DNA of 41,382 bases from Akkermansiaceae bacterium. Lineage in GTDB: Bacteria > Verrucomicrobiota > Verrucomicrobiia > Verrucomicrobiales > Akkermansiaceae. The stretch spans positions 1 through 41,382 of the forward strand of contig CAIVSK010000135.1 of the NCBI GenBank assembly GCA_903908495.1. The letters are read 5' to 3'. This document shows, piece after piece, positions 8,753 to 37,880 of this stretch (the first letter of the stretch is position 1; each line of letters begins with the position of its first letter). Under the pieces are notes generated by a model. The model was given only the letters and a program-made list of their open reading frames with translations. It was not told where the DNA came from and searched no databases. The position numbers and the translations under genes are program-made.

Positions 8753-9835
8753 ATGTCAGGCCATCAAGTACTCGATCACGTCGACCAATATCTCCAGCTC
8801 GGGCGGGAATACGAGTGCTCGGACATCCACCTTCCCACGGCGTTTCCACCGGCTTGGCGGCGCTTCGGCCAGCTCGCCCCGATTTGGGAGGATCACCCGC
8901 TGTTGACCCCGCATGACACCGAACGGTTGGCCCGCTCTTTCCTCGGCCCTCATGAATGGGCCCGCCTGCAGGACAAGGGCGACGTCGACTTCGCCTACGC
9001 CAACCTGCACGGCCGCTATCGCGCCTCGGTCGTCAAACAACGCCTCGGCTACGACATGGCCTTCCGCGTCATCAATACCAGAATCCGCTCGATGGAGGAA
9101 ATCGGGCTGCCCCTCGAGCACATCACCCCGCTCACCCGTTACCAAAACGGCCTCATCCTCGTCACCGGTTCGGTCGGCTCCGGCAAATCCACCACCCTCG
9201 CCGCCCTCGTGGATTTCGTCAACATGGACCGCGAGGACCACATCCTCACCCTCGAGGATCCCATTGAGTATGTCTTCGAATCCAAGGGCTGTCACGTCAA
9301 CCAGCGCGAAGTCCACGCCCACACCGAGTCCTTCGGCAAAGCCCTCCGCGGCGCCCTCCGCGAAGACCCCGACGTCATCATGGTCGGGGAAATGCGCGAC
9401 CTCGAAACCATCCAGCTCGCCCTCACCGCCGCGGAAACCGGCCATTTGGTCCTCGGCACCCTCCACACCGGCAATGCCCCGCGCACCCTCGACCGCGTGC
9501 TCGACGTGTTCCCCGTCGATCAACGCGAGCAGATCCGCGTCATGGTCTCCGAATCCCTCCGCGGCATCCTCTCCCAACAACTCGTGCCCCGCATGGACGG
9601 CGTCGGCCGCGTCCTCGCCCTCGAACTGCTGGTCAACACCCCGGCCGTCGCCAACTGCATCCGCGAGGGCAAAACCTTCATGCTGCCCGGCGTCATGCAA
9701 ACCGGCAAAAACGTCGGCATGATCACCATGGACGAATCGCTGCGCCAACTCTACATCAAAGGGGTCATCTCCCGCGAGGAAGTCCTCTACCGCGCCGAAG
9801 ATAAACACCAGATGCGCGATTTCTTCCGCTCCTGA
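8753..9835 (+). CDS. PilT-type twitching ATPase, divergent paralogue
   Basis: A 360-residue secretion-superfamily ATPase closest to PilT/PilU, the hexameric motors that retract type IV pili on the cytoplasmic side of the inner membrane. The N-terminal PAS-like domain (about 1-110) carries SDIHL; the ATPase core has Walker A GSVGSGKST (139-147), the Asp box TLEDPIEYVF, Walker B VIMVGEMRD (208-216) and the His box TAAETGHLVLGTLHT (225-239). The C-terminal motif that is AIRNLIRE in PilT reads AVANCIRE here. The second PilT-like gene follows after 69 bases; the two differ widely, so this is an old duplication rather than a recent one. No pilin or assembly gene is present in the window. Confidence 0.9.
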   Translation: MSGHQVLDHVDQYLQLGREYECSDIHLPTAFPPAWRRFGQLAPIWEDHPLLTPHDTERLARSFLGPHEWARLQDKGDVDFAYANLHGRYRASVVKQRLGYDMAFRVINTRIRSMEEIGLPLEHITPLTRYQNGLILVTGSVGSGKSTTLAALVDFVNMDREDHILTLEDPIEYVFESKGCHVNQREVHAHTESFGKALRGALREDPDVIMVGEMRDLETIQLALTAAETGHLVLGTLHTGNAPRTLDRVLDVFPVDQREQIRVMVSESLRGILSQQLVPRMDGVGRVLALELLVNTPAVANCIREGKTFMLPGVMQTGKNVGMITMDESLRQLYIKGVISREEVLYRAEDKHQMRDFFRS

Positions 9836-9904
9836 CCCGCCGTTGCTGTTTCTAACAAAGACCGCGCCAACCCCTTCCCTTAAACCGCTTCCCTCACTCG
9901 ACCC

Positions 9905-11014
9905 ATGGCTTACATAGACGGCTACTTCCGCTACCTCATCGACTCCAAAGGCTCCGACCTTCATCTCTCCGAAGGCCAGCCCCCGAAAATCCGCGTCCAC
10001 GGCTCGGTCGTCCCCATCCCGGAGCAACCGCTGCTGCAGGGGGAGAGCTTCCATTCGATGTTAGAGGAGATTTGCGAGCCGAGCGCCTTCGCCCGCTACC
10101 TCCAATCCGGCGACCTCGACTTCGCCTATGAGATGGACTTGGACTCGCGCTTCCGCTGCAATTATTTCAAACAGCAAAACGGCCTCGGAGCCGTCTTCCG
10201 CCTCATTCCCACCGAGATCGCCTCGCTGGAAAGTCTTGGGGTGCCCGCCGTCGTCAAGGAATTCGGCCACATGCGCTCCGGCCTGGTGCTCGTCACCGGC
10301 CCCACCGGTTCGGGCAAGTCCACCACTCTTGCGGCGTTGTTAGATTATATCAACATCAATTTCAACCGCCACATCATCACCGTCGAGGAACCCATCGAGT
10401 TCATCCATTCTAACAAGCGCTCGATCATCACCCAGCGCGAGGTTCCGATCCAGACGCCGTCCTTCGCCGACGGCCTGCGCGCCTCGCTGCGCGAAGACTC
10501 CGACATCGTGCTGGTCGGGGAAATGCGCGATCTGGAAACCATCTCGCTGGCGCTCACCGCGGCCGAGACCGGCCTGTTGGTGTTCGGTACCCTCCACACT
10601 AACAACGCCCGCAAGACCGTCGACCGCATCATCGACGTGTTCCCCGCCGACCAGCAATCGCAGGTACGCACCATGCTGGCCGCCTCGCTGCGCGGCGTCG
10701 TCGCCCAGTTGCTGTGCAAACGCGTTGACAAGCCCGGCCGCACCGCGGTGCATGAAATCATGTTCGCCACCCCGGCCGTGGCCGCCATCATCCGGGAGGG
10801 TGCCACCCAGAAACTCTACGACGTCATCACCAGCGGCAAGTCCGAAGGCATGCAGTTCATGGATGAATCCATCTGGACCAAGCTGCGCTCGGGCATGATC
10901 TCGCCGGAAGAGGCCTACATGAAGGCCATCGACAAGACCCGCTTCAAAAAATTCCTGCCCGCCGCCCTCGCCCACCTCGGCGATGCCTCCGGCGAAAGTC
11001 CGCTCGACCATTGA
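9905..11014 (+). CDS. PilT-type twitching motility ATPase
   Basis: A 369-residue PilT/PilU-family ATPase, the second of an adjacent pair. The N-terminus has the standard SDLHLSEGQPPKIRVHG signature (17-33). Walker A is GPTGSGKST (132-140), the Asp box TVEEPIEF, Walker B IVLVGEMRD (201-209), and the His box TAAETGLLVFGTLHT; the C-terminal motif is AVAAIIRE followed by a PilT-like tail with QFMDESIWTKL. It is closer to canonical PilT than its upstream neighbour and may be the main retraction motor, with the first acting like PilU. That division of labour is inferred from other bacteria. A strong hairpin begins 12 bases after the stop. Confidence 0.92.
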   Translation: MAYIDGYFRYLIDSKGSDLHLSEGQPPKIRVHGSVVPIPEQPLLQGESFHSMLEEICEPSAFARYLQSGDLDFAYEMDLDSRFRCNYFKQQNGLGAVFRLIPTEIASLESLGVPAVVKEFGHMRSGLVLVTGPTGSGKSTTLAALLDYININFNRHIITVEEPIEFIHSNKRSIITQREVPIQTPSFADGLRASLREDSDIVLVGEMRDLETISLALTAAETGLLVFGTLHTNNARKTVDRIIDVFPADQQSQVRTMLAASLRGVVAQLLCKRVDKPGRTAVHEIMFATPAVAAIIREGATQKLYDVITSGKSEGMQFMDESIWTKLRSGMISPEEAYMKAIDKTRFKKFLPAALAHLGDASGESPLDH

Positions 11015-11796: not shown

Positions 11797-12645
11797 ATGC
11801 ATTTCACCCTGAAATCCCTACGTGCCACAGTCCCGGCAGTCGTCGCTCTGGCCCTCACTCTCACACCTAACCTCCACGCCGAACCGACCATGCCCGAAAC
11901 TCCCTCCGATGTAGCCGTCGCGCCAGCCGATGCGGCCAAAACCGCCTCCGGCCTCGCCTCCAAAGTCCTTACCAAAGGCACTGGCAGCAAGAAGCCGGCC
12001 GCCGCCGATACCGTTACCGTCCACTACTCCGGTTGGACCACCGACGGCAAACTTTTTGATAGTTCCGTGCAACGCGGCAAACCAACCAGCTTCCCGCTCA
12101 ACGGCGTGATCAAGGGGTGGACCGAAGGCCTCCAGCTCATGGTGGAAGGCGAAAAGCGCCGCTTCTGGATTCCCGCCGCCCTCGCCTACGGTGAAACCCC
12201 CGGCGGCGGCCGCCCCGGTGGTCTGCTCGTCTTCGATGTGGAATTGCTCAGCTTCAAGGAGGCACCCAAGCCCCCGGCAGTGCCCGCCGATGTCGCCGCC
12301 GCCCCCAAGGATGCGGAAACCACCGCCTCCGGCCTCGCCTCCAAGGTCCTCGCCAAAGGCACTGGCAGCACTCATCCGAAGGCCACCGACCAAGTCAAGG
12401 TCCATTATTCCGGCTGGACCACCGACGGCAAACTTTTCGATAGCTCCGTCTCTCGCGGCCAGCCCATCACTTTTGGACTCAACCAGGTCATTCCCGGTTG
12501 GACCGAAGGGGTTCAGCTCATGGTCGAAGGTGAAAAGCGCCGCCTCTGGATCCCTGCCAAGCTCGGCTACGGCGAAAACCCCGGCGGCGGCCGCCCCGGC
12601 GGACTCCTCGTCTTTGACGTGGAACTCATCCAAATCGTCAAGTGA
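11797..12645 (+). CDS. Exported tandem-FKBP peptidyl-prolyl cis-trans isomerase
   Basis: From the ATG at 11797 the protein has 282 residues: a signal peptide (1-28, ending NLHA), then two FKBP domains (about 72-152 and 199-279) in direct repeat with a 127-residue period. Both contain VHYSGWTTDGKLFDSSV, a GWTEG turn, LMVEGEKRR, IPA and PGGGRPGGLLVFDVEL. The expected hydrophobic active-site residues (Tyr and Phe-Asp of HYSGW/LFDSS, Trp of GWTEG) are therefore kept in both copies. FKBP enzymes speed up proline isomerisation during folding of exported proteins. The domains differ at few positions, indicating a fairly recent internal duplication. The next gene starts at a GTG overlapping this stop codon, so the two are translationally coupled. 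The frame is open upstream to 11716, but the signal peptide marks 11797 as the start. Confidence 0.9.
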   Translation: MHFTLKSLRATVPAVVALALTLTPNLHAEPTMPETPSDVAVAPADAAKTASGLASKVLTKGTGSKKPAAADTVTVHYSGWTTDGKLFDSSVQRGKPTSFPLNGVIKGWTEGLQLMVEGEKRRFWIPAALAYGETPGGGRPGGLLVFDVELLSFKEAPKPPAVPADVAAAPKDAETTASGLASKVLAKGTGSTHPKATDQVKVHYSGWTTDGKLFDSSVSRGQPITFGLNQVIPGWTEGVQLMVEGEKRRLWIPAKLGYGENPGGGRPGGLLVFDVELIQIVK

Positions 12646-22881: not shown

Positions 22882-23910
22882 GTGCTTGATTCCCTATATC
22901 CCATGGTTCGCGCAGGGCTGTTTCGGCTTGATCCGGAAGTGGCGCACCATTTGAGTTTGAGCGTGTTGCGGCTGGCGGAACGCGTGGGTCTGCTGCGGCT
23001 GGCCTACCCGGCGGACGAGTTGGTGGCCCCGGTGGAGGTGCTGGGGCTGCGGTTTCCCAACCGGATCGGGCTGGCTGCGGGGATGGACAAGGCTGGCGAC
23101 ACGATCGACGGGTTCGGGCGGCTGGGCTTTGGCAGCCTTGAAATTGGGACGTTCACGCCGCGGGCGCAGCCGGGCAACCCCAAACCGCGGCTGTTCCGGC
23201 TCGTCGAGCACGAGGCGATCATCAACCGCATGGGCTTCAACAATGCCGGCATCGGTGCCGGGGTGGCCAACGCGCGCCGTGTCAAATCCTTTGACGGTGT
23301 GCTGGGTTTCAACATAGGCAAGAACAAGGACACGCCCAACGACGCCGCCGCAGCCGACTACCTGGAGTGCCTGCGCCAGGCGTATCCGGTGGCGGATTAC
23401 ATCGCGGTGAACCTGTCCTCGCCCAACACCCCCGGGCTGCGCGAGCTGCAGGGGCCGGAGGCATGTGCGCGCTTGCTGGAGACGCTCAAACGGGAACAGG
23501 AAACCCTCGCCGCCACGCACGGCAAGCGGGTGCCGCTGCTGTTCAAGGTGGCGCCGGACCTCGACGAGTCGCACATCCGCGAGCTCTCAGCGGTGTTTGT
23601 GGCAGGCGGTTTGGACGGCTTGATTGCCACCAATACCACCCTCGACCGCGACCTGGTGGCCGGCCACCTGCGCGCCGCCGAAGCCGGCGGGCTGTCCGGG
23701 CGGCCGGAATTTGCCAAGAGCACCGCCGTGCTGCAAGCCTTTGCCAGCCATCTGGGCGGCCGCATCCCGATCATCGGGGTCGGCGGCATCAGCTCGTTGG
23801 AAGACGCCCGGGCGAAACTGCGCGCCGGGGCCACCCTGGTGCAGGTCTACACCGCCTTCATTTATCAGGGACCCGGGCTGATCCGCCAACTGGCCCGCGA
23901 ATTGGCGTGA
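22882..23910 (+). CDS. pyrD: Dihydroorotate dehydrogenase (quinone), class 2
   Basis: The GTG at 22882 gives 342 residues beginning LDSLYPMVRAGLFRLDPE after the start residue, which aligns with the amphipathic membrane-binding helix of class-2 enzymes; the frame is open from 22807. Signature segments are RIGLAAGMDKAGDTIDGFGR, GSLEIGTFTPRAQPGNPKPR, NRMGFNN, VNLSSPNTPGLRELQG (FMN and substrate contacts, with the catalytic serine in NLSSPNT), TNTT, SGRPEF and PIIGVGGISS. It oxidises dihydroorotate to orotate in pyrimidine synthesis, passing electrons to quinone at the inner membrane. It is divergent from the sigma-factor gene and followed closely by a small palindrome and the permease gene. Confidence 0.95.
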   Translation: MLDSLYPMVRAGLFRLDPEVAHHLSLSVLRLAERVGLLRLAYPADELVAPVEVLGLRFPNRIGLAAGMDKAGDTIDGFGRLGFGSLEIGTFTPRAQPGNPKPRLFRLVEHEAIINRMGFNNAGIGAGVANARRVKSFDGVLGFNIGKNKDTPNDAAAADYLECLRQAYPVADYIAVNLSSPNTPGLRELQGPEACARLLETLKREQETLAATHGKRVPLLFKVAPDLDESHIRELSAVFVAGGLDGLIATNTTLDRDLVAGHLRAAEAGGLSGRPEFAKSTAVLQAFASHLGGRIPIIGVGGISSLEDARAKLRAGATLVQVYTAFIYQGPGLIRQLARELA

Positions 23911-23912
23911 TA

Positions 23913-23927
23913 GCGGCTTCCAGCCGC
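23913..23927 (+). repeat. GGCTTCCAGCC palindrome after pyrD
   Basis: GCGGCT-TCC-AGCCGC is a perfect 6-bp stem with a 3-base loop, 2 bases after the pyrD stop. Its core GGCTTCCAGCC is identical to the core of the dispersed element at 24126 and 36909, so it may be a minimal relative. Confidence 0.45.
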
Positions 23928-23947
23928 CAGCTTGATTTCCAGGGGTT

Positions 23948-25378
23948 ATGAGTGCCTCAGTGGAAAAATCCGCCGCGAGCAATCCCCGATATTCCCTTCA
24001 CTTGACGCCCATGCCACCCACCCCTACACCGCCACCAGCCGATGACCGCGAGCGCCGCGCCTTGCGCCGCTCGTTGCTGCAAATGACGCCGCCGCCAGCG
24101 GGCGGGCCGCGCAATAGTGTCAATTTATCGCTCTCTGATCGGAAAACAGGCTTCCAGCCTGTGATGGAAGACAGCGCGTCCCGCCTGTCTGTGCTTGAGA
24201 CGACAGGCTGGAAGCCCGTCGTCCATGACAGGCAAGATGGCTGTCCTCCTGCTAAACGAACCGAATTGGGCGCTCCGCGTCCGTGCTGCCTGCCGCCAGA
24301 GCCTGCTGCGGGCGGATCCTGCTGTGGACCAAAGGCAGCGGCAGCGGGCGGATCGTGCTGTGGCGGCGGGGCGCGGCGGCGGCCGGACTGGTTGATGTGG
24401 GGGTCGACCGCGGCATTCTTGTTTGGGCTGGGCGGGTATTTTGTGGTGGGCGGGCCGGGGTGGCTGCACATTTTCGGGCATACGTGTTACGAATTACTGA
24501 TGCGGACGTGGTGGAGTCTGGGCTTGGGGATTGTGGCGGTGGCGGTGATTGGCCGGGTGCCCAGCGAGCTGGTGGCAGCCCTGCTCGGGCGCAGCGGCAG
24601 TTTCAACGGGTTGCTGCGGGCGGTGGGTGCCGGGGTGGCGCTGGATTTATGCAACCACGGCATCCTGATGGTTGGCATGAGCCTCTACAAACGAGGTGCG
24701 TCACTGGGGCAGACGGTGGCCTTTTTGATCGCCAGCCCGTGGAATTCGCTCTCGCTGACGCTTATTCTCGCATCGCTGATTGGTTGGGGGTGGATGGGGC
24801 TGTTCATCGCACTGTCGATGCTGGTGGCACTCATCACCGGCTGGATCACCGAACGACTGGTGGCCGCCGGCAAAATCCCGGCCAATCCCAATGCGGTGCA
24901 GTTGCCCGCCGGCTACCGCAAAGGTCCGGCATTGCGCGGGGTGTTGCGCTCGTTGAAACCCGGCGTGGAAAATTATTCCCGGCTGGCCAGGGAAGGCGTG
25001 GCGGGCTCACGCATGGTGCTGCGCTGGATTCTGTTTGGCTTTGTGGTCACGGGGTTGATGCGCGCCTTCGTGCCGGAAGCGTTGTTTCAGCAATCATTCG
25101 GTCCGACCCTCGGCGGCATGTTCCTGACCTTGGTGGCCACCACCCTGCTGGAGGTCTGTTCGGAAGGCTCCTCACCCATCGCGGCGGATTTGTTGACCCG
25201 GGCGCACGCTCCCGGCAATGCCTTTGTGTTCCTGATGGCCGGCGCTGCCACCGACTACACCGAACTGCTCAGCTTGCGGGCCACCACTCTATCGTGGAAA
25301 GCCAGCCTGGCCTTGCCGCTCATTTCCACGCCGCAGGTATTGCTCATCGGCTGGTTGATCAATCATTTCAGCCACTGA
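23948..25378 (+). CDS. ArsP-like permease with repeat-derived insert and Cys-Cys pairs
   Basis: The 476-residue protein carries a permease core (about 148-476) of the DUF318/ArsP_1 family, with about eight to ten membrane helices and conserved GVALDLCNHGILMVGMSLY, IASPWNSLSLTLILASLIG and LEVCSEGSSPIAADLL. Relatives export organoarsenicals or other toxic compounds; the substrate here is unknown. The soluble N-terminus is odd. Residues about 60-103 are encoded by copy 2 of the dispersed element (TGFQPV and TTGWKPVVHDRQDG), followed by three CC pairs at 113, 125 and 137 with a 12-residue period, within GGSCCG-type repeats that could bind metal. The start at 23948 is uncertain; ATG 24011 is an alternative. 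It lies 37 bases after pyrD. Confidence 0.8.
   Translation: MSASVEKSAASNPRYSLHLTPMPPTPTPPPADDRERRALRRSLLQMTPPPAGGPRNSVNLSLSDRKTGFQPVMEDSASRLSVLETTGWKPVVHDRQDGCPPAKRTELGAPRPCCLPPEPAAGGSCCGPKAAAAGGSCCGGGARRRPDWLMWGSTAAFLFGLGGYFVVGGPGWLHIFGHTCYELLMRTWWSLGLGIVAVAVIGRVPSELVAALLGRSGSFNGLLRAVGAGVALDLCNHGILMVGMSLYKRGASLGQTVAFLIASPWNSLSLTLILASLIGWGWMGLFIALSMLVALITGWITERLVAAGKIPANPNAVQLPAGYRKGPALRGVLRSLKPGVENYSRLAREGVAGSRMVLRWILFGFVVTGLMRAFVPEALFQQSFGPTLGGMFLTLVATTLLEVCSEGSSPIAADLLTRAHAPGNAFVFLMAGAATDYTELLSLRATTLSWKASLALPLISTPQVLLIGWLINHFSH
24126..24257 (+). repeat. Dispersed palindromic element, copy 2 (inside the permease gene)
   Basis: The most complete copy. ACAGGCTTCCAGCCTGT (24146-24162) is itself a 7-bp palindrome, and its GGCTTCCAGCCTGT part also pairs perfectly with ACAGGCTGGAAGCC (24203-24216), so two alternative folds exist. 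The right end CTGTCCTCCTG is shared with copy 3. It is read through in frame by the permease gene. Confidence 0.9.
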
Positions 25379-32304: not shown

Positions 32305-35300
32305 GTGATTAAAAAAGCCACTCTTGCCACCGTGCTGATCTTGTCGGCATGGATTCTCTCCATCGTTCCCACGCGTGCCGAGGGGATGTTGCAGTACTTC
32401 AACACGAGCTGGGCGGAAATCACCCGCAAAATGCCCGAACTCGCCGAGGCGGGGTATGATTCCATCTGGCTGCCCCCGCCGACCAAGGGATCGGGCGCGT
32501 TGTCAGTCGGTTACGACGTGTGGGACCGCTTCGATCTCGGGTCAAAGGACCAGCGCGGCAGTGTGCGCACCCGCTATGGCACCGAGGCTGAGTTGATTGA
32601 ACTGGTCAGCACCGCGCACCGGTTCGGGATCAGGATCTATCTGGACAATGTGGTGAACCACTGCGCGTTCGACACGCCCGGGTACGATGCCAATTCCCCG
32701 ATCTCTCTGTATCCCGGCATGCTGCCCGGAGATTTTCACCTGCGCGTCACCGGCGACGGGTTCTACCGGAAATGGGACAACACGCGCGACTGGAACGACG
32801 CGTGGCAGGTGCAATACCTCGGGCTTTCCGATCTCATTGATATTGCCAGCGAGCCCGGGCCCACCAATGGCAACCACGGCTACCACGAAGGCGACACCCT
32901 CGCAAAGCCCGAATTCGTCCGCCATCCCAACAACCCGGAATACTATTGCTACAAGCCAAGCGGCGCGGGACAGCGGCACGCCGCAGGGCAGGGGATCTAT
33001 GTCGGGTTCGGCCCGGGCAATGGAATCTCGACCGCGCTGCTCGCGGCCAACCCGGATTTTTACAAGGAACGGGTCGAGGATTTTCTGTGCCGCTCCGCCC
33101 GCTGGGAGATTGACCGGACCAAGGCGGACGGCTTCCGCCTGGACGCAGTGAAGCATGTCCCAGCAGATTTTTTCGGGGCCACCTACGGAGCGGACCGGGA
33201 TTCATCGGCCTACGGGTACACCGGACAGGTCCAGCTCCAGTTCAATTTATCGCGGGGATTTTCCGACTGGGACAACCACCGCGACACGGTATTTGACACC
33301 GAGAAACCGCGCGACGATGCGATGCTCTTCGGTGAGCACCTCGGCCAGCCGCCGCCCTACGATGGCTACCTCAATGCGGGCATGCGCTTGGTGGACAACG
33401 ATTTGCACAACAACCTCAATGGCATGCTCGGCAACCCATGGGGCTCGCTCGCCGGTTTTGACGGCCCCGGATACGGCGGATTTCCCCCCGGCAGCGGCGT
33501 GATGTTCGCGCAAAGCCACGATAACGACTACTCCGTGTGCCGCGAGTTGCAGCACGCAATCTGCTTCACCCGCGCCGGGCTGCCACTCATTTACACCGAC
33601 GGCAATCACCACGCTGACGTACTCAACGGCAGCGGTGGGGCCTTTCCTCGCCATGCCAATACCGCCTATCTCGGCCAATGGGGCGACGCGCGCATCCCCA
33701 ATCTGCTCAAAATCCACCAGAGCATGTCCCGCGGCTGGCAATTCCCGCGCTGGAGCGATGCGGACTTCCTTGCCTATGAACGCATTGACGAGCGTGAGTT
33801 TGCGGAGTCCGACCAGACGCTCAAACAGCGCAAGGGCGTGACCATGATCATGATGCTCAATGACAACTACGGCGCCGGCCAGGAGCGTCCCCTTGCCACC
33901 TCCTTCCCCTCCGCTGCGGGCGGGGGATCCGAAAACAACCCCGATACCAACGACGAATATCTCTATCAATACGCCCGCGGCTATGGCAGCCAGACGGGGT
34001 TCTACAGCTACGCCTCGGCGCTTGGCTCGGTGCTGGTGGACAAGGGCAGCTATTTTGTGTTCTCACCGCGCACCCCGGAGGAATCCTCGCTTTGGTCGGC
34101 TGGCGGCGGCAGCCCGCTGACGATCTATCAAAACAATGCGGCGGTCGGCAAGGTGAGTTTGACCCGCCGTGATGGAGCGGATGGCGACCCGGGGTTCAAC
34201 CCCTACGGACTCCCGGACTCGGTCACCTCGGATTACAGTTATACCATGGATGTGCCGCGCGTCACGGACAGTTCCGCGCTGCGCTTGGTGGTCCGGGCGG
34301 ACGGCTCGGCGGAAAACATCCTGCTCAAACTCGACGGCGGCATCGATCTCAACGGCACCCGCCCAGCCGGTAACAGCGACCCGTTCTATCGGGACAACCC
34401 GCCCGCCTTGTCCACCGATGTTTTTCTCGGCTATGAACAGCCCGGTTTCACCCGCAGGCAATATGCCGAGAAATTTGCCGCCAAGGACACCACCCGCAAT
34501 CACGTCGGCTCATCCGGCGCGGAAACCTACGCGACAGTGATTGGCAGCAAGGTGTTCGCGATTGCCAACGGGCCTCTCAACTCGAACGATTACTCGACGG
34601 ATGGCGGCACCCTCGCGGCCTTTCTCTATCACGATCCGCTCGACGTGGTCGGCGGCACGCCGGTCGGCGGTTGGCCGGGTGGAGTGGCGCCGAAGCAATA
34701 TGGGGAATTTTCCTCCAGCCTGGCGATCTGGGCGAAGCCCAACGGCGTGGGTTTAGGGTTCCGCATGTTTTGCTACTACACCGGCGATGGCAGCAACCCG
34801 GAAGGCGCAGGTGGCGAGGGCATCGGCACCACCAAGGTGGCTGAGATGAATTGGAGCCACAATCAGGGCTCGGATGACTGGTGGATGACCGCGACGCTGC
34901 CGAAGCCGGCGGCGGGGGGCACCGTCAAATACAAGATTGGCATTTTCAAGGCAGGCGCGCCGAGTATCTATCCGTCAGGGCCGGCCTCCGTGGCGAAGAA
35001 GTCCAGCATGATGACCGTGTTCGAGATCGACGGCTTCCAGCCCGCCACGGTAGCGCATGCCCAGCACAATGACTACAGCGCGACGACCGGCGGCCTCGAG
35101 GAAGGCTTCCATGTGCTGCGCGGCAGGGTCTTTCTCAAGCGGGACGGCAAGGCGTCTCTCTACAACACGTTCACCCAGACGTTTTACTATGACGCCCAGC
35201 CGCCGCGCGGACAGATACTCTATCCCGCGAACAATGGCGACACGGTGGGTGGCAATGGATATGGCGCAGTGGTGCGCAGCGATTTTTCCGCCACCGCGGT

Positions 35301-36720
35301 GTGGTACCGCATTGTGGACGCGGATGATTCCAATGACGACGCGGCCACCGGCGCGGCCAATGGCAATGCGGCCTGGGTCATGGCATCGGAAGAGACCTCG
35401 AGTCCCGGCATCACGCCGTCCGATCCGGCGCTTGGGCGGCAATGGCGCTTCGACTATATCAACATTCCGGCATCCGGAACCGCCACCCTCCAGGTTCGGA
35501 TCAAGGAGATATCGTCATCTGCAGACAACTCACTGAGTGACTCCGCCGGACACTTCACCACCCTCACTCGCAGCGTGAACACCGCCGGCCCGGATCTGCG
35601 CCTGTTTGTGGGATGGCCACAGGCGGACCGCGCGCTCATCGATCCGGGTTATGTATTCAAGACGTATTTCACCAAGGCGTTGGCGGCGGGCATGAGTGAG
35701 GCGGACGTCAAAAGCCACCTGGTGGTTAGGTACGGATCCAATGAGAGCTGGCCATGGGGCGCTGTGACGCTGGACAGTTCAGGCTATTCCATCAACTGGG
35801 ACGAAACCAGCCAGTATCACGCGTTGGTGTTTCAATTGCCCGATTTGTACAACGGGGTGCCGGACTATTTGTTCCGCGTTGAAGCCACCTTCACGCGGGC
35901 GGCACCGCTGGCCAGCCTGATCGCGCGCCGCCTGGTCACCGCCGCAGCGCCCGCGCAGCCGCGGGTGGCGGTCACCCAGCCGCTGGAAGTTGATAGTGAC
36001 GGGCAAGCGGTGCGGATCGTGCTGCCGGATTTTCCCGCGCTCAACCCGCTGGCTTATGCGGTGCGGGTGGAGACGGATTTGAGTGCCACCGACGTGAGTA
36101 TTTCCTTCAATCTCGGCACGGGGACCCTGACGCCGGTGGATCATGACAGCGCGGTGGCGGGTGTGCAGCCGCTGGTGCAGGGCACGAGCAAGCTCTGGGA
36201 ATTCATCTGGATCCTCAGCGCGCCCGGTGACTACCGCTTCACCGCGAGCGCCACCGGCCCGCGCGGAACCAGCAGCGCCAGCCGCAACGCCCACGTCGTT
36301 GCCAGCCAAGCGGGCGTTGTCGCCCCCGTGGACATGGACGGCGACGGGCTGCCCGGCGCATGGGAAACGGCCAATGGGCTCAGCGACACGGATGCCACCG
36401 GGGTCAACGGCAGGTATGGTGATCCCGATGGCGACGGCATTCCCAACATCGCGGAATACCTCTTCGGCACCAATCCGCAAGTGGCAAACCCCGCGCCCAA
36501 AGTGACCCTCACCCGGCAGCCCGGATCGTGGCATATCACGTTTCCCACCGTGCCGGATCGCAGATACCAACTGCAGGTTTCCCAGGACTTGCGAACCTGG
36601 CTCGATCTCGGGGCCGCCCTCGATACCACCGGCGCCACCGGTCCCGGGGTTTTTCAAGCGGATGATGCCGCCTCAAGCGCCGCGCGCTTGTACCGGATGG
36701 TTGTTTCGGCGGCGAATTGA
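32305..36720 (+). CDS. Large secreted alpha-amylase family (GH13) protein
   Basis: The GTG at 32305 gives 1471 residues with a signal peptide (1-25, ending PTRA). The N-terminal part (about 26-470) is a GH13 (beta/alpha)8 barrel: region I YLDNVVNH (113-119), region II DGFRLDAVKH with nucleophile D280, region III LFGEHLG with acid/base E344, and region IV AQSHDND with D406. All three catalytic carboxylates are present. Residues about 560-1330 form a long beta-rich section of unassigned modules. Near the C-terminus (about 1343-1392) a thrombospondin-3-like calcium segment DMDGDGLPGAWE and DPDGDGIPNIAEYLFGTNP is followed by a domain ending in RLYRMVVSAAN. GH13 enzymes act on alpha-glucans; substrate and product are not predictable. 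The size and modules suggest an extracellular or surface enzyme. Confidence 0.9.
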   Translation: MIKKATLATVLILSAWILSIVPTRAEGMLQYFNTSWAEITRKMPELAEAGYDSIWLPPPTKGSGALSVGYDVWDRFDLGSKDQRGSVRTRYGTEAELIELVSTAHRFGIRIYLDNVVNHCAFDTPGYDANSPISLYPGMLPGDFHLRVTGDGFYRKWDNTRDWNDAWQVQYLGLSDLIDIASEPGPTNGNHGYHEGDTLAKPEFVRHPNNPEYYCYKPSGAGQRHAAGQGIYVGFGPGNGISTALLAANPDFYKERVEDFLCRSARWEIDRTKADGFRLDAVKHVPADFFGATYGADRDSSAYGYTGQVQLQFNLSRGFSDWDNHRDTVFDTEKPRDDAMLFGEHLGQPPPYDGYLNAGMRLVDNDLHNNLNGMLGNPWGSLAGFDGPGYGGFPPGSGVMFAQSHDNDYSVCRELQHAICFTRAGLPLIYTDGNHHADVLNGSGGAFPRHANTAYLGQWGDARIPNLLKIHQSMSRGWQFPRWSDADFLAYERIDEREFAESDQTLKQRKGVTMIMMLNDNYGAGQERPLATSFPSAAGGGSENNPDTNDEYLYQYARGYGSQTGFYSYASALGSVLVDKGSYFVFSPRTPEESSLWSAGGGSPLTIYQNNAAVGKVSLTRRDGADGDPGFNPYGLPDSVTSDYSYTMDVPRVTDSSALRLVVRADGSAENILLKLDGGIDLNGTRPAGNSDPFYRDNPPALSTDVFLGYEQPGFTRRQYAEKFAAKDTTRNHVGSSGAETYATVIGSKVFAIANGPLNSNDYSTDGGTLAAFLYHDPLDVVGGTPVGGWPGGVAPKQYGEFSSSLAIWAKPNGVGLGFRMFCYYTGDGSNPEGAGGEGIGTTKVAEMNWSHNQGSDDWWMTATLPKPAAGGTVKYKIGIFKAGAPSIYPSGPASVAKKSSMMTVFEIDGFQPATVAHAQHNDYSATTGGLEEGFHVLRGRVFLKRDGKASLYNTFTQTFYYDAQPPRGQILYPANNGDTVGGNGYGAVVRSDFSATAVWYRIVDADDSNDDAATGAANGNAAWVMASEETSSPGITPSDPALGRQWRFDYINIPASGTATLQVRIKEISSSADNSLSDSAGHFTTLTRSVNTAGPDLRLFVGWPQADRALIDPGYVFKTYFTKALAAGMSEADVKSHLVVRYGSNESWPWGAVTLDSSGYSINWDETSQYHALVFQLPDLYNGVPDYLFRVEATFTRAAPLASLIARRLVTAAAPAQPRVAVTQPLEVDSDGQAVRIVLPDFPALNPLAYAVRVETDLSATDVSISFNLGTGTLTPVDHDSAVAGVQPLVQGTSKLWEFIWILSAPGDYRFTASATGPRGTSSASRNAHVVASQAGVVAPVDMDGDGLPGAWETANGLSDTDATGVNGRYGDPDGDGIPNIAEYLFGTNPQVANPAPKVTLTRQPGSWHITFPTVPDRRYQLQVSQDLRTWLDLGAALDTTGATGPGVFQADDAASSAARLYRMVVSAAN

Positions 36721-36861: not shown

Positions 36862-36888
36862 TCCGTGTACTCCGTGAAATCCGTGGTT
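36862..36888 (+). repeat. Nine-base TCCGTGNNN tandem repeat
   Basis: TCCGTGTAC, TCCGTGAAA and TCCGTGGTT follow each other without gaps. The phrase is familiar to me from intergenic regions of Verrucomicrobia and Planctomycetes, but this was not searched. Confidence 0.55.
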
Positions 36889-36908
36889 TCCATCGTCCTT
36901 TCCAGGTT

Positions 36909-37043
36909 TAGCGCTGGCTGACCGGAAAACTGGCTTCCAGCCTGTGATGGAGGACAGCGCGTCGAGCCTGTCGGCCAATGAATCGACAGGCTGGAAGCCC
37001 GTCGGCCATGACATGCGGGACGTCTGTCCTCCTGTCAAACTGC
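36909..37043 (+). repeat. Dispersed palindromic element, copy 3
   Basis: Third copy. It keeps GGCTTCCAGCCTGT and the matching ACAGGCTGGAAGCC, GGACAGCGCGTC and the right end CTGTCCTCCTG shared with copy 2. The left palindrome has one change (ACTGGCTTCCAGCCTGT). It lies between converging genes and ends about 25 bases from the stop of the minus-strand gene. The frame that is coding in copy 2 is open here as well. Confidence 0.88.
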
Positions 37044-37068: not shown

Positions 37069-37575
37069 TTAGCGGGTCTCGGCCGATTCGCTGGACGAGT
37101 CATCCTGCTTGGCCGAGCCGATGGACGGCAGGAAACCCTTGGCCGTGTAATCGAAGGTTCCGTATGACAGATTTGCCACCCCCCAAGTGGTCACCCGTCC
37201 GCCGGAAATCCCCTTGAAGCGAGCGGTGCCGCCGATGGCAGAGAACTCACCCGCGAAGCCACCTGTGAGCAGCGAAACCGCGACATGAACGTCAAAGGTG
37301 ATGGTGCCGCCGCTGGATGCGGTGGAGGTGAAGGTCCCGTCAAAGACCAGGTAGGCACCGGCCAGGCTGACGTGCAGGTCATAGACCGAAGTGAAGTTGC
37401 CGAGTAGCGTGGCGCGGCCGCTGTCCACAGCTGCAACGGTCCCGCCTGGCACGGGCTGGGCGAGCAACTGAGCCACGCCGTTGCTGGAGAATGGCACGAG
37501 GTCGCGCGCCTCTACGAACGGGGTGAGGAATGCAAACGAGACGGCGAGTAAAGCGAGGTGGATGGAACGGATCAT
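37069..37575 (-). CDS. Exported protein of unknown function
   Basis: The 168-residue protein starts MIRSIHLALLAVSFAFLTPF at 37575, a clear signal peptide ending around VEA. The mature part is beta-rich with many Gly/Ser/Thr residues, including GRATLLGNFTSVYDLHVS, AYLVFDGTFTSTASSGGTITF and FDYTAKGFLPSIG, and a Ser/Glu-rich polar tail. It looks like a small all-beta secreted protein; the pattern of G-x-F/T strands recalls lipocalin- or CHRD-like beta sheets, but I recognise no family. The frame extends upstream to 37686, but the signal peptide marks this start. A possible -35/-10 pair (TTGCGT, TACATT, 16-base spacer on the minus strand, near 37660-37690) lies upstream. Confidence 0.6.
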   Translation of the reverse strand: MIRSIHLALLAVSFAFLTPFVEARDLVPFSSNGVAQLLAQPVPGGTVAAVDSGRATLLGNFTSVYDLHVSLAGAYLVFDGTFTSTASSGGTITFDVHVAVSLLTGGFAGEFSAIGGTARFKGISGGRVTTWGVANLSYGTFDYTAKGFLPSIGSAKQDDSSSESAETR

Positions 37576-37880
37576 GATTGTTTTCGGTTTTGGGTTTCGG
37601 TTATTACGGTTGTTGTGGCAGAGCCTGGTACAGGTGACCTTTGCCCTGCAAACAGCCGAATGTATTTCAATGAGCACGATACGCAACGGATTTTAAGAGA
37701 TTTTTTGGTTTTATTCAGTGAGGGCTGGAAGCCGGGGCGGGTGGCCTGAGGTGCCGCCAAGATCCCGGAGAGGGGCACCACTGAGGTTGCGGCCCGGGCA
37801 GGGGGCCGGGTTCTCTAAGGGGTCGATAAATATCATATTTTCCAAAGATCCCCCTTGGTTATTTTTACGATCAGTATAAA
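37576..37880. other. Divergent control region, no gene
   Basis: This 305-base AT-richer region separates the minus-strand exported protein from the GH9 gene and must hold both promoters. It contains a GGCTGGAAGCC word (37725-37735) as in the dispersed element, and an AAATAT-C-ATATTT palindrome (37828-37840) about 40 bases before the GH9 start. No clean -35/-10 pair for the GH9 gene could be assigned. Confidence 0.45.

Follow-up and report, generated by a model that had tools for sequence, protein, structure and literature searches.

The window, a 41,382-nt stretch from the draft genome of a freshwater Akkermansiaceae bacterium (6.19 Mb, 432 contigs, 95.7% complete), carries an ORF for an ArsP_1-type permease into which a 157-bp repeat element has been inserted, flanked by 11-bp direct duplications (Table 1). 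An alternative permease start at 24011 likewise lies 5′ of the insert. The protein scored far under the cut-offs of the NCBIfam SO_0444 and SaoE transporter models, and an AlphaFold prediction (mean pLDDT 45; 8 sequences) was too poor for use. Two further copies of the element lie in the window, giving matching spans at 3–144, 24098–24239 and 36881–37022; identity to the first is 85% for the second and 73% for the third. An earlier note on this DNA had recognized these three copies and the in-frame insertion into the permease gene, and both observations hold. The insert is larger than the roughly 40 codons proposed there, which left out both terminal repeats: 157 bp of element and one 11-bp duplication make 168 bp, and so add 56 codons in frame. 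Also missed there were the 11-bp duplication, a partner of the IS4 family and a copy lying antisense in a gene.

Table 1 Features of the permease locus and the other element copies in the window
Feature	Position	Strand	Basis or remark
ArsP_1-type permease ORF with insert	23948..25378	+	Pfam ArsP_1 match at residues 181-467
Left 11-bp target duplication, GGCGGGCCGCG, beginning on a codon boundary	24101..24111	+	9/11 matches
157-bp MITE in permease, read in frame	24112..24268	+	Family alignment of ends; open frame
Left terminal inverted repeat, family form ~CAATACTGnCAGTnTAGCGC	24112..24131	+	Decayed in permease copy
Interval of the earlier note	24133..24257	+	Hairpin-rich core alone
Right terminal inverted repeat	24249..24268	-	Decayed in permease copy
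Right 11-bp target duplication, GGCGCTCCGCG	24269..24279	+	
Further element copy at contig end	3..160	+	Right end unrecognisable
Further element copy between ORFs 32305-36720 and 37069-37686	36881..37040	+	

The element occurs far more often than chance allows: its 21-bp core, allowing up to 3 mismatches, matched 90 times genome-wide, compared with once for the reversed control pattern. The 72 stretches around core matches, together with the window, gave 82 non-overlapping profile hits, among them at least 67 element copies at ≥80 bits, a census that is a lower bound because loci were picked by the core with ≤3 mismatches and one scan scored 40 of 106 candidates. Flank-aligned copies have in common CAATACTG-type inverted ends, which lie outside the interval first described. 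Exactly 157 bp was the length of 25 of the 32 copies with recognisable ends and a length of 155–165 bp; among 49 copies with end matches the figure was 24, several of the remainder being wrong end assignments. The element is a small one that cannot move itself and has spread through the genome. It has the make-up of a MITE, being short, free of a transposase gene and present in many copies (157 bp; 67 copies at ≥80 bits), with terminal inverted repeats across the family that have decayed in the permease copy. REP-like hairpins are present in its core (fold z −4.55), and the strong fold of the region is due to these palindromes; an RNA element was considered and rejected, as a search of 23900–24500 against Rfam matched nothing up to E = 1.

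Flanking sequences matched at an offset of 11 bp in 7.84 of 11 positions within copies, compared with 6.28 between copies, a value as high being reached in none of 20,000 shuffles (P = 5 × 10−5; rows with doubtful ends, L057, L091 and L062, were kept in this permutation test). Other duplication lengths between 6 and 15 bp gave a smaller excess or none (P = 0.04 at 6, 0.017 at 8, 0.015 at 10 and 0.006 at 12), so the fixed-length duplication of a MITE is seen at 11 bp, with a weaker excess at 6, 8, 10 and 12. The target site resembles GGC(N5)GCC. The two permease duplications, 168 bp apart, are imperfect.

A permease orthologue was present in 24 of 60 other genomes of the same genus. Searching these 24 loci with the element profile found no copy, the host’s own locus being positive; 23 of the loci are informative, as one (L154) is truncated close to the start of the gene. 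The comparison with insert-free orthologues that the earlier note had proposed gave a consistent result: the seven that were aligned all lack the insert and are conserved to either side of its site, with an A-L-R-R..L segment before it and the membrane part after it. Read from these alignments, the insert lies within the protein. The landing site would be a variable linker that separates the conserved N-terminal segment from the Cys-rich/membrane part, and the insertion would most simply date from after the split of this lineage from the sampled relatives. The permease copy falls below the coding-flank threshold used below, and its case therefore rests on the orthologues.

In the permease orthologue of another genome (L035:3115–3216; same gene in L144) we observed a different in-frame repeat in the same linker, with the peptide SSGQDARATVVRAS. 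The 21-bp core of that repeat had 45 matches in its genome and a control pattern had none. With a second repeat family in it, this linker tolerates insertions of more than one such family.

Copies in other genes use this frame too, which adds to the case for in-frame insertion. One of these genes is valS, which had one match genome-wide and in which the element sits between the catalytic and anticodon domains. The junction was readable at 23 of 29 orthologue loci and the insert was absent from all 23; a profile search of the 29 fetched loci also found no element, the host’s own valS being positive. The net difference between this valS and one orthologue (L159) is 54 codons. Among the loci fetched, the permease and ValS inserts are confined to this genome.

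For 9 of 67 copies the two flanks were coding, on the same strand and in the same phase, with a score above 0.2; seven of these read in the sense frame and one, in an ogt-like gene (L072), is antisense, while the ninth (L103) was excluded, its flanks having matched two different genes. The 0.2 threshold was picked after the table had been seen. Sense-frame copies with coding flanks include those in a TOTE helicase (L101), a glycoside phosphorylase (L091), an FtsQ-like protein (L104) and a sulfatase (L054), along with L075 and L089, the last of which had no Pfam or NCBIfam match and was called genic from its coding flanks alone. Among this genome’s copies, only those in ValS, the helicase and the phosphorylase have a core with Pfam domains to either side. 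A relative carries copies in the same frame between the FHA and AAA domains of an FHA-MoxR protein (L038) and inside a glycosyltransferase gene (L039/L124). Four copies near gene starts are ambiguous (L043, L044, L049 and L081), and three judged by eye to lie just 5′ of a gene (L073, L085 and L092) were left out of the genic count. Two genes that look similar by eye (L047 and L108) both have the element near the 3′ end in the same frame, which would reflect either insertion before duplication or two insertions.

The genome contains three DDE_Tnp_1 matches, one of which belongs to a complete 1,456-bp insertion sequence (L114) with CAATACTGTTTACTTAGCAC at its left end and a right end that differs at its first base. 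These ends depart from the MITE family ends at 3 and 4 of 21 positions, so that the element shares its ends with a resident autonomous insertion sequence. The L114 transposase has the Pfam domains Nterm_IS4 and DDE_Tnp_1 and the motif Y(2)R(3)E(6)K, and scores 206 bits against an NCBIfam IS4-family cut-off of 115. In a published table, the IS4 subgroup is characterized by lengths of 1,400–1,650 bp, ends of the form -AATR--------WTW----, a YREK motif and 10–13-bp repeats (PMC2266710); L114 agrees with that row in transposase family, YREK, length and end motif, and the MITE’s own 11-bp duplication fits the repeat length. The direct repeat around L114, one complete copy, matches at 8 of 11 positions, little over the 6.28 between unrelated copies. 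A second gene (L112), cut by a contig end, is 60% identical to the L114 transposase and has the same two Pfam domains; its single visible end is weak (6 of 21 mismatches). We also found a 328-bp chimera (L057) that joins the 5′ end of the insertion sequence to the right half of the MITE, between GGC(N5)GCC sites matching at 7 of 11 positions. To judge from its structure, it is a physical link between the two and may be an intermediate of MITE formation.

Together, these features make the IS4-family insertion sequence the probable mobilizer of the MITE. Counting against this link, eight relatives matched the MITE strongly (best E below 1 × 10−20), yet a close transposase was present in only one of them (G054) and was not detected in the other seven at E ≤ 1 × 10−20.

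In the mechanism that we propose, the MITE would be moved in trans by an IS4-family transposase, with GGC(N5)GCC-like sites as targets and an 11-bp duplication at each insertion. Because most copies can be read without stops in one particular frame and direction, insertion in that phase would add 56 codons and leave the host protein readable. We consider it highly probable that the permease insert belongs to a 157-bp MITE family moved in trans by an IS4-type transposase, and that the in-frame addition of 56 codons has been tolerated. The copies, their ends, the duplication, the partner transposase genes, the insert-free orthologues and the open frame were observed directly; movement by that transposase, translation of the insert, and an added peptide that is tolerated and not functional are what we infer.

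The earlier note had stated that the same frame is open in all three window copies, which is so across the core. When duplication, element and duplication were read together, the number of copies without a stop was 24 of 28 for the sense frame, 13 for one antisense frame, and 4, 1, 0 and 0 for the remaining four frames. Of 20 copies that are 157 bp long and lie outside the genes listed, 17 also had the sense frame open. It is conceivable, if unlikely, that the element is a translatable transposon, and that selection has tuned its 157 + 11 = 168 length and stop-free frame for genic insertions to yield 56-residue linkers. If true, the element would repeatedly supply proteins with new segments, essential enzymes included.

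A related possibility, that the element peptide itself is selected for translation as a built-in protein-linker strategy, would also account for the frame being open outside genes, and we regard it as rather improbable. When the consensus was dinucleotide-shuffled, 68% of the shuffled sequences contained at least one open frame, so that nothing special is required to account for the one in the element. Since insertions in closed frames would truncate proteins, this filter explains the frame common to genic copies. A test of selection was made on the 47 of 82 copies that were gap-free. Purifying selection on the peptide was not detected in the 13 treated as genic, five of them weaker cases (L043, L044, L049, L047 and L108), with 45 synonymous changes versus 40.4 expected (P = 0.22); the earlier note was right to caution that peptide selection was unproven. 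The 34 other copies, by contrast, did show a synonymous excess (108 versus 88.3 expected, P = 0.0085), as selection would predict, but changes shared by descent make these P values too small. Stop codons in the other copies were depleted more strongly in a control frame (2 versus 10.4 expected, P = 0.0005) than in the translated frame (5 versus 10.1, P = 0.06), so this measure is not specific to the translated frame. An earlier count for window copies 2 and 3, 7 of 17 differing codons changed only at the third base, proved exact; copies 1 and 2 gave 4 of 14.

We also weighed whether the element is of REP/BIME type and moved by a RAYT (Y1) transposase rather than a DDE-type MITE. The hairpins of the core and eight Y1_Tnp matches in the genome (G000) are consistent with that view. 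However, the 157-bp unit ends in terminal inverted repeats and is flanked by an 11-bp duplication, both features of DDE transposition, whereas REPs are described as 20–40 bp (PMC3733652), and the exact module ACAGGC(N5)GCC(T/C)GT was absent from 5 of 8 Y1 loci scanned (L199–L203), which together leave a RAYT origin very unlikely. Less probable still is that the protein starts downstream, after 24257, with the insert an untranslated leader: the permease insert is N-terminal and the four copies near gene starts could be leaders, but the A-L-R-R..L segment lying 5′ of the insert in the seven aligned orthologues argues against such a start, as do the inserts between Pfam domains in ValS, the helicase and the phosphorylase.

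We class the element, on the preferred reading of a MITE moved in trans, as an IS4-type MITE that would work like the Rickettsia palindromic elements. Those elements, reviewed together with in-frame MITE fusions in PMC10969869, are the best-known case of repeats turning into protein parts; as described there, they are about 150 bp, palindromic and found in frame inside unrelated genes. The parallel, drawn before from the permease alone, extends to the unrelated genes reported here and is one of description. The present element differs in coming from another phylum and in that its terminal repeats, 11-bp duplication and resident transposase are visible. In contrast to the Rickettsia phenomenon, the likely mover and the unoccupied versions of the genes can be identified here. 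With a probable mobilizer, a target rule, a duplication length and insert-free orthologues all visible, the question becomes testable in one system, for which valS is a sensitive reporter.

Other systems resemble it in part. The likeness to IS4-subgroup MITEs is by table description (PMC2266710) and covers the 1,456-bp length, CAATACTGTTTACTTAGCAC ends and YREK of the insertion sequence and the 11-bp duplication of the MITE; the core here consists of REP-like hairpins and not the interior of an insertion sequence, and the target is GGC(N5)GCC-like. In Opitutus terrae, another Verrucomicrobia genome, GTAG REPs are likewise palindromic repeats inside ORFs, but their units are 20–40 bp, occur as dimers or groups adding 20–30 residues, and are described in the part of PMC3733652 concerned with them with no mention of a duplication. 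MITEAba12 is also a small MITE linked to a resident insertion sequence by common ends and duplication length (PMC6382973); it differs in being 113 bp, in having a 9-bp duplication and in being reported there to disrupt hns. Among the publications listed for MITEs, palindromic elements or REPs together with Verrucomicrobia, none described this element in its title or the opening of its abstract.

Element matches, several of them weak, were found in 16 of 99 genomes including the host’s own, all of one genus, with up to 8 candidates scored per genome. Among 288 genomes from the phylum, with 2 candidates scored in each, the host’s own was the only one with a match.

Two diverged pairs of direct repeats were also seen in the window, at 9283–10707 and 11902–12582 (294 and 300 nt; 73% and 76% identity). 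Lone GGCTTCCAGCC-type palindromes that resemble modules of the element occur at 23915–23925, 35032–35042 and 37723–37733, and one of them sits directly 3′ of the stop codon of the upstream ORF.
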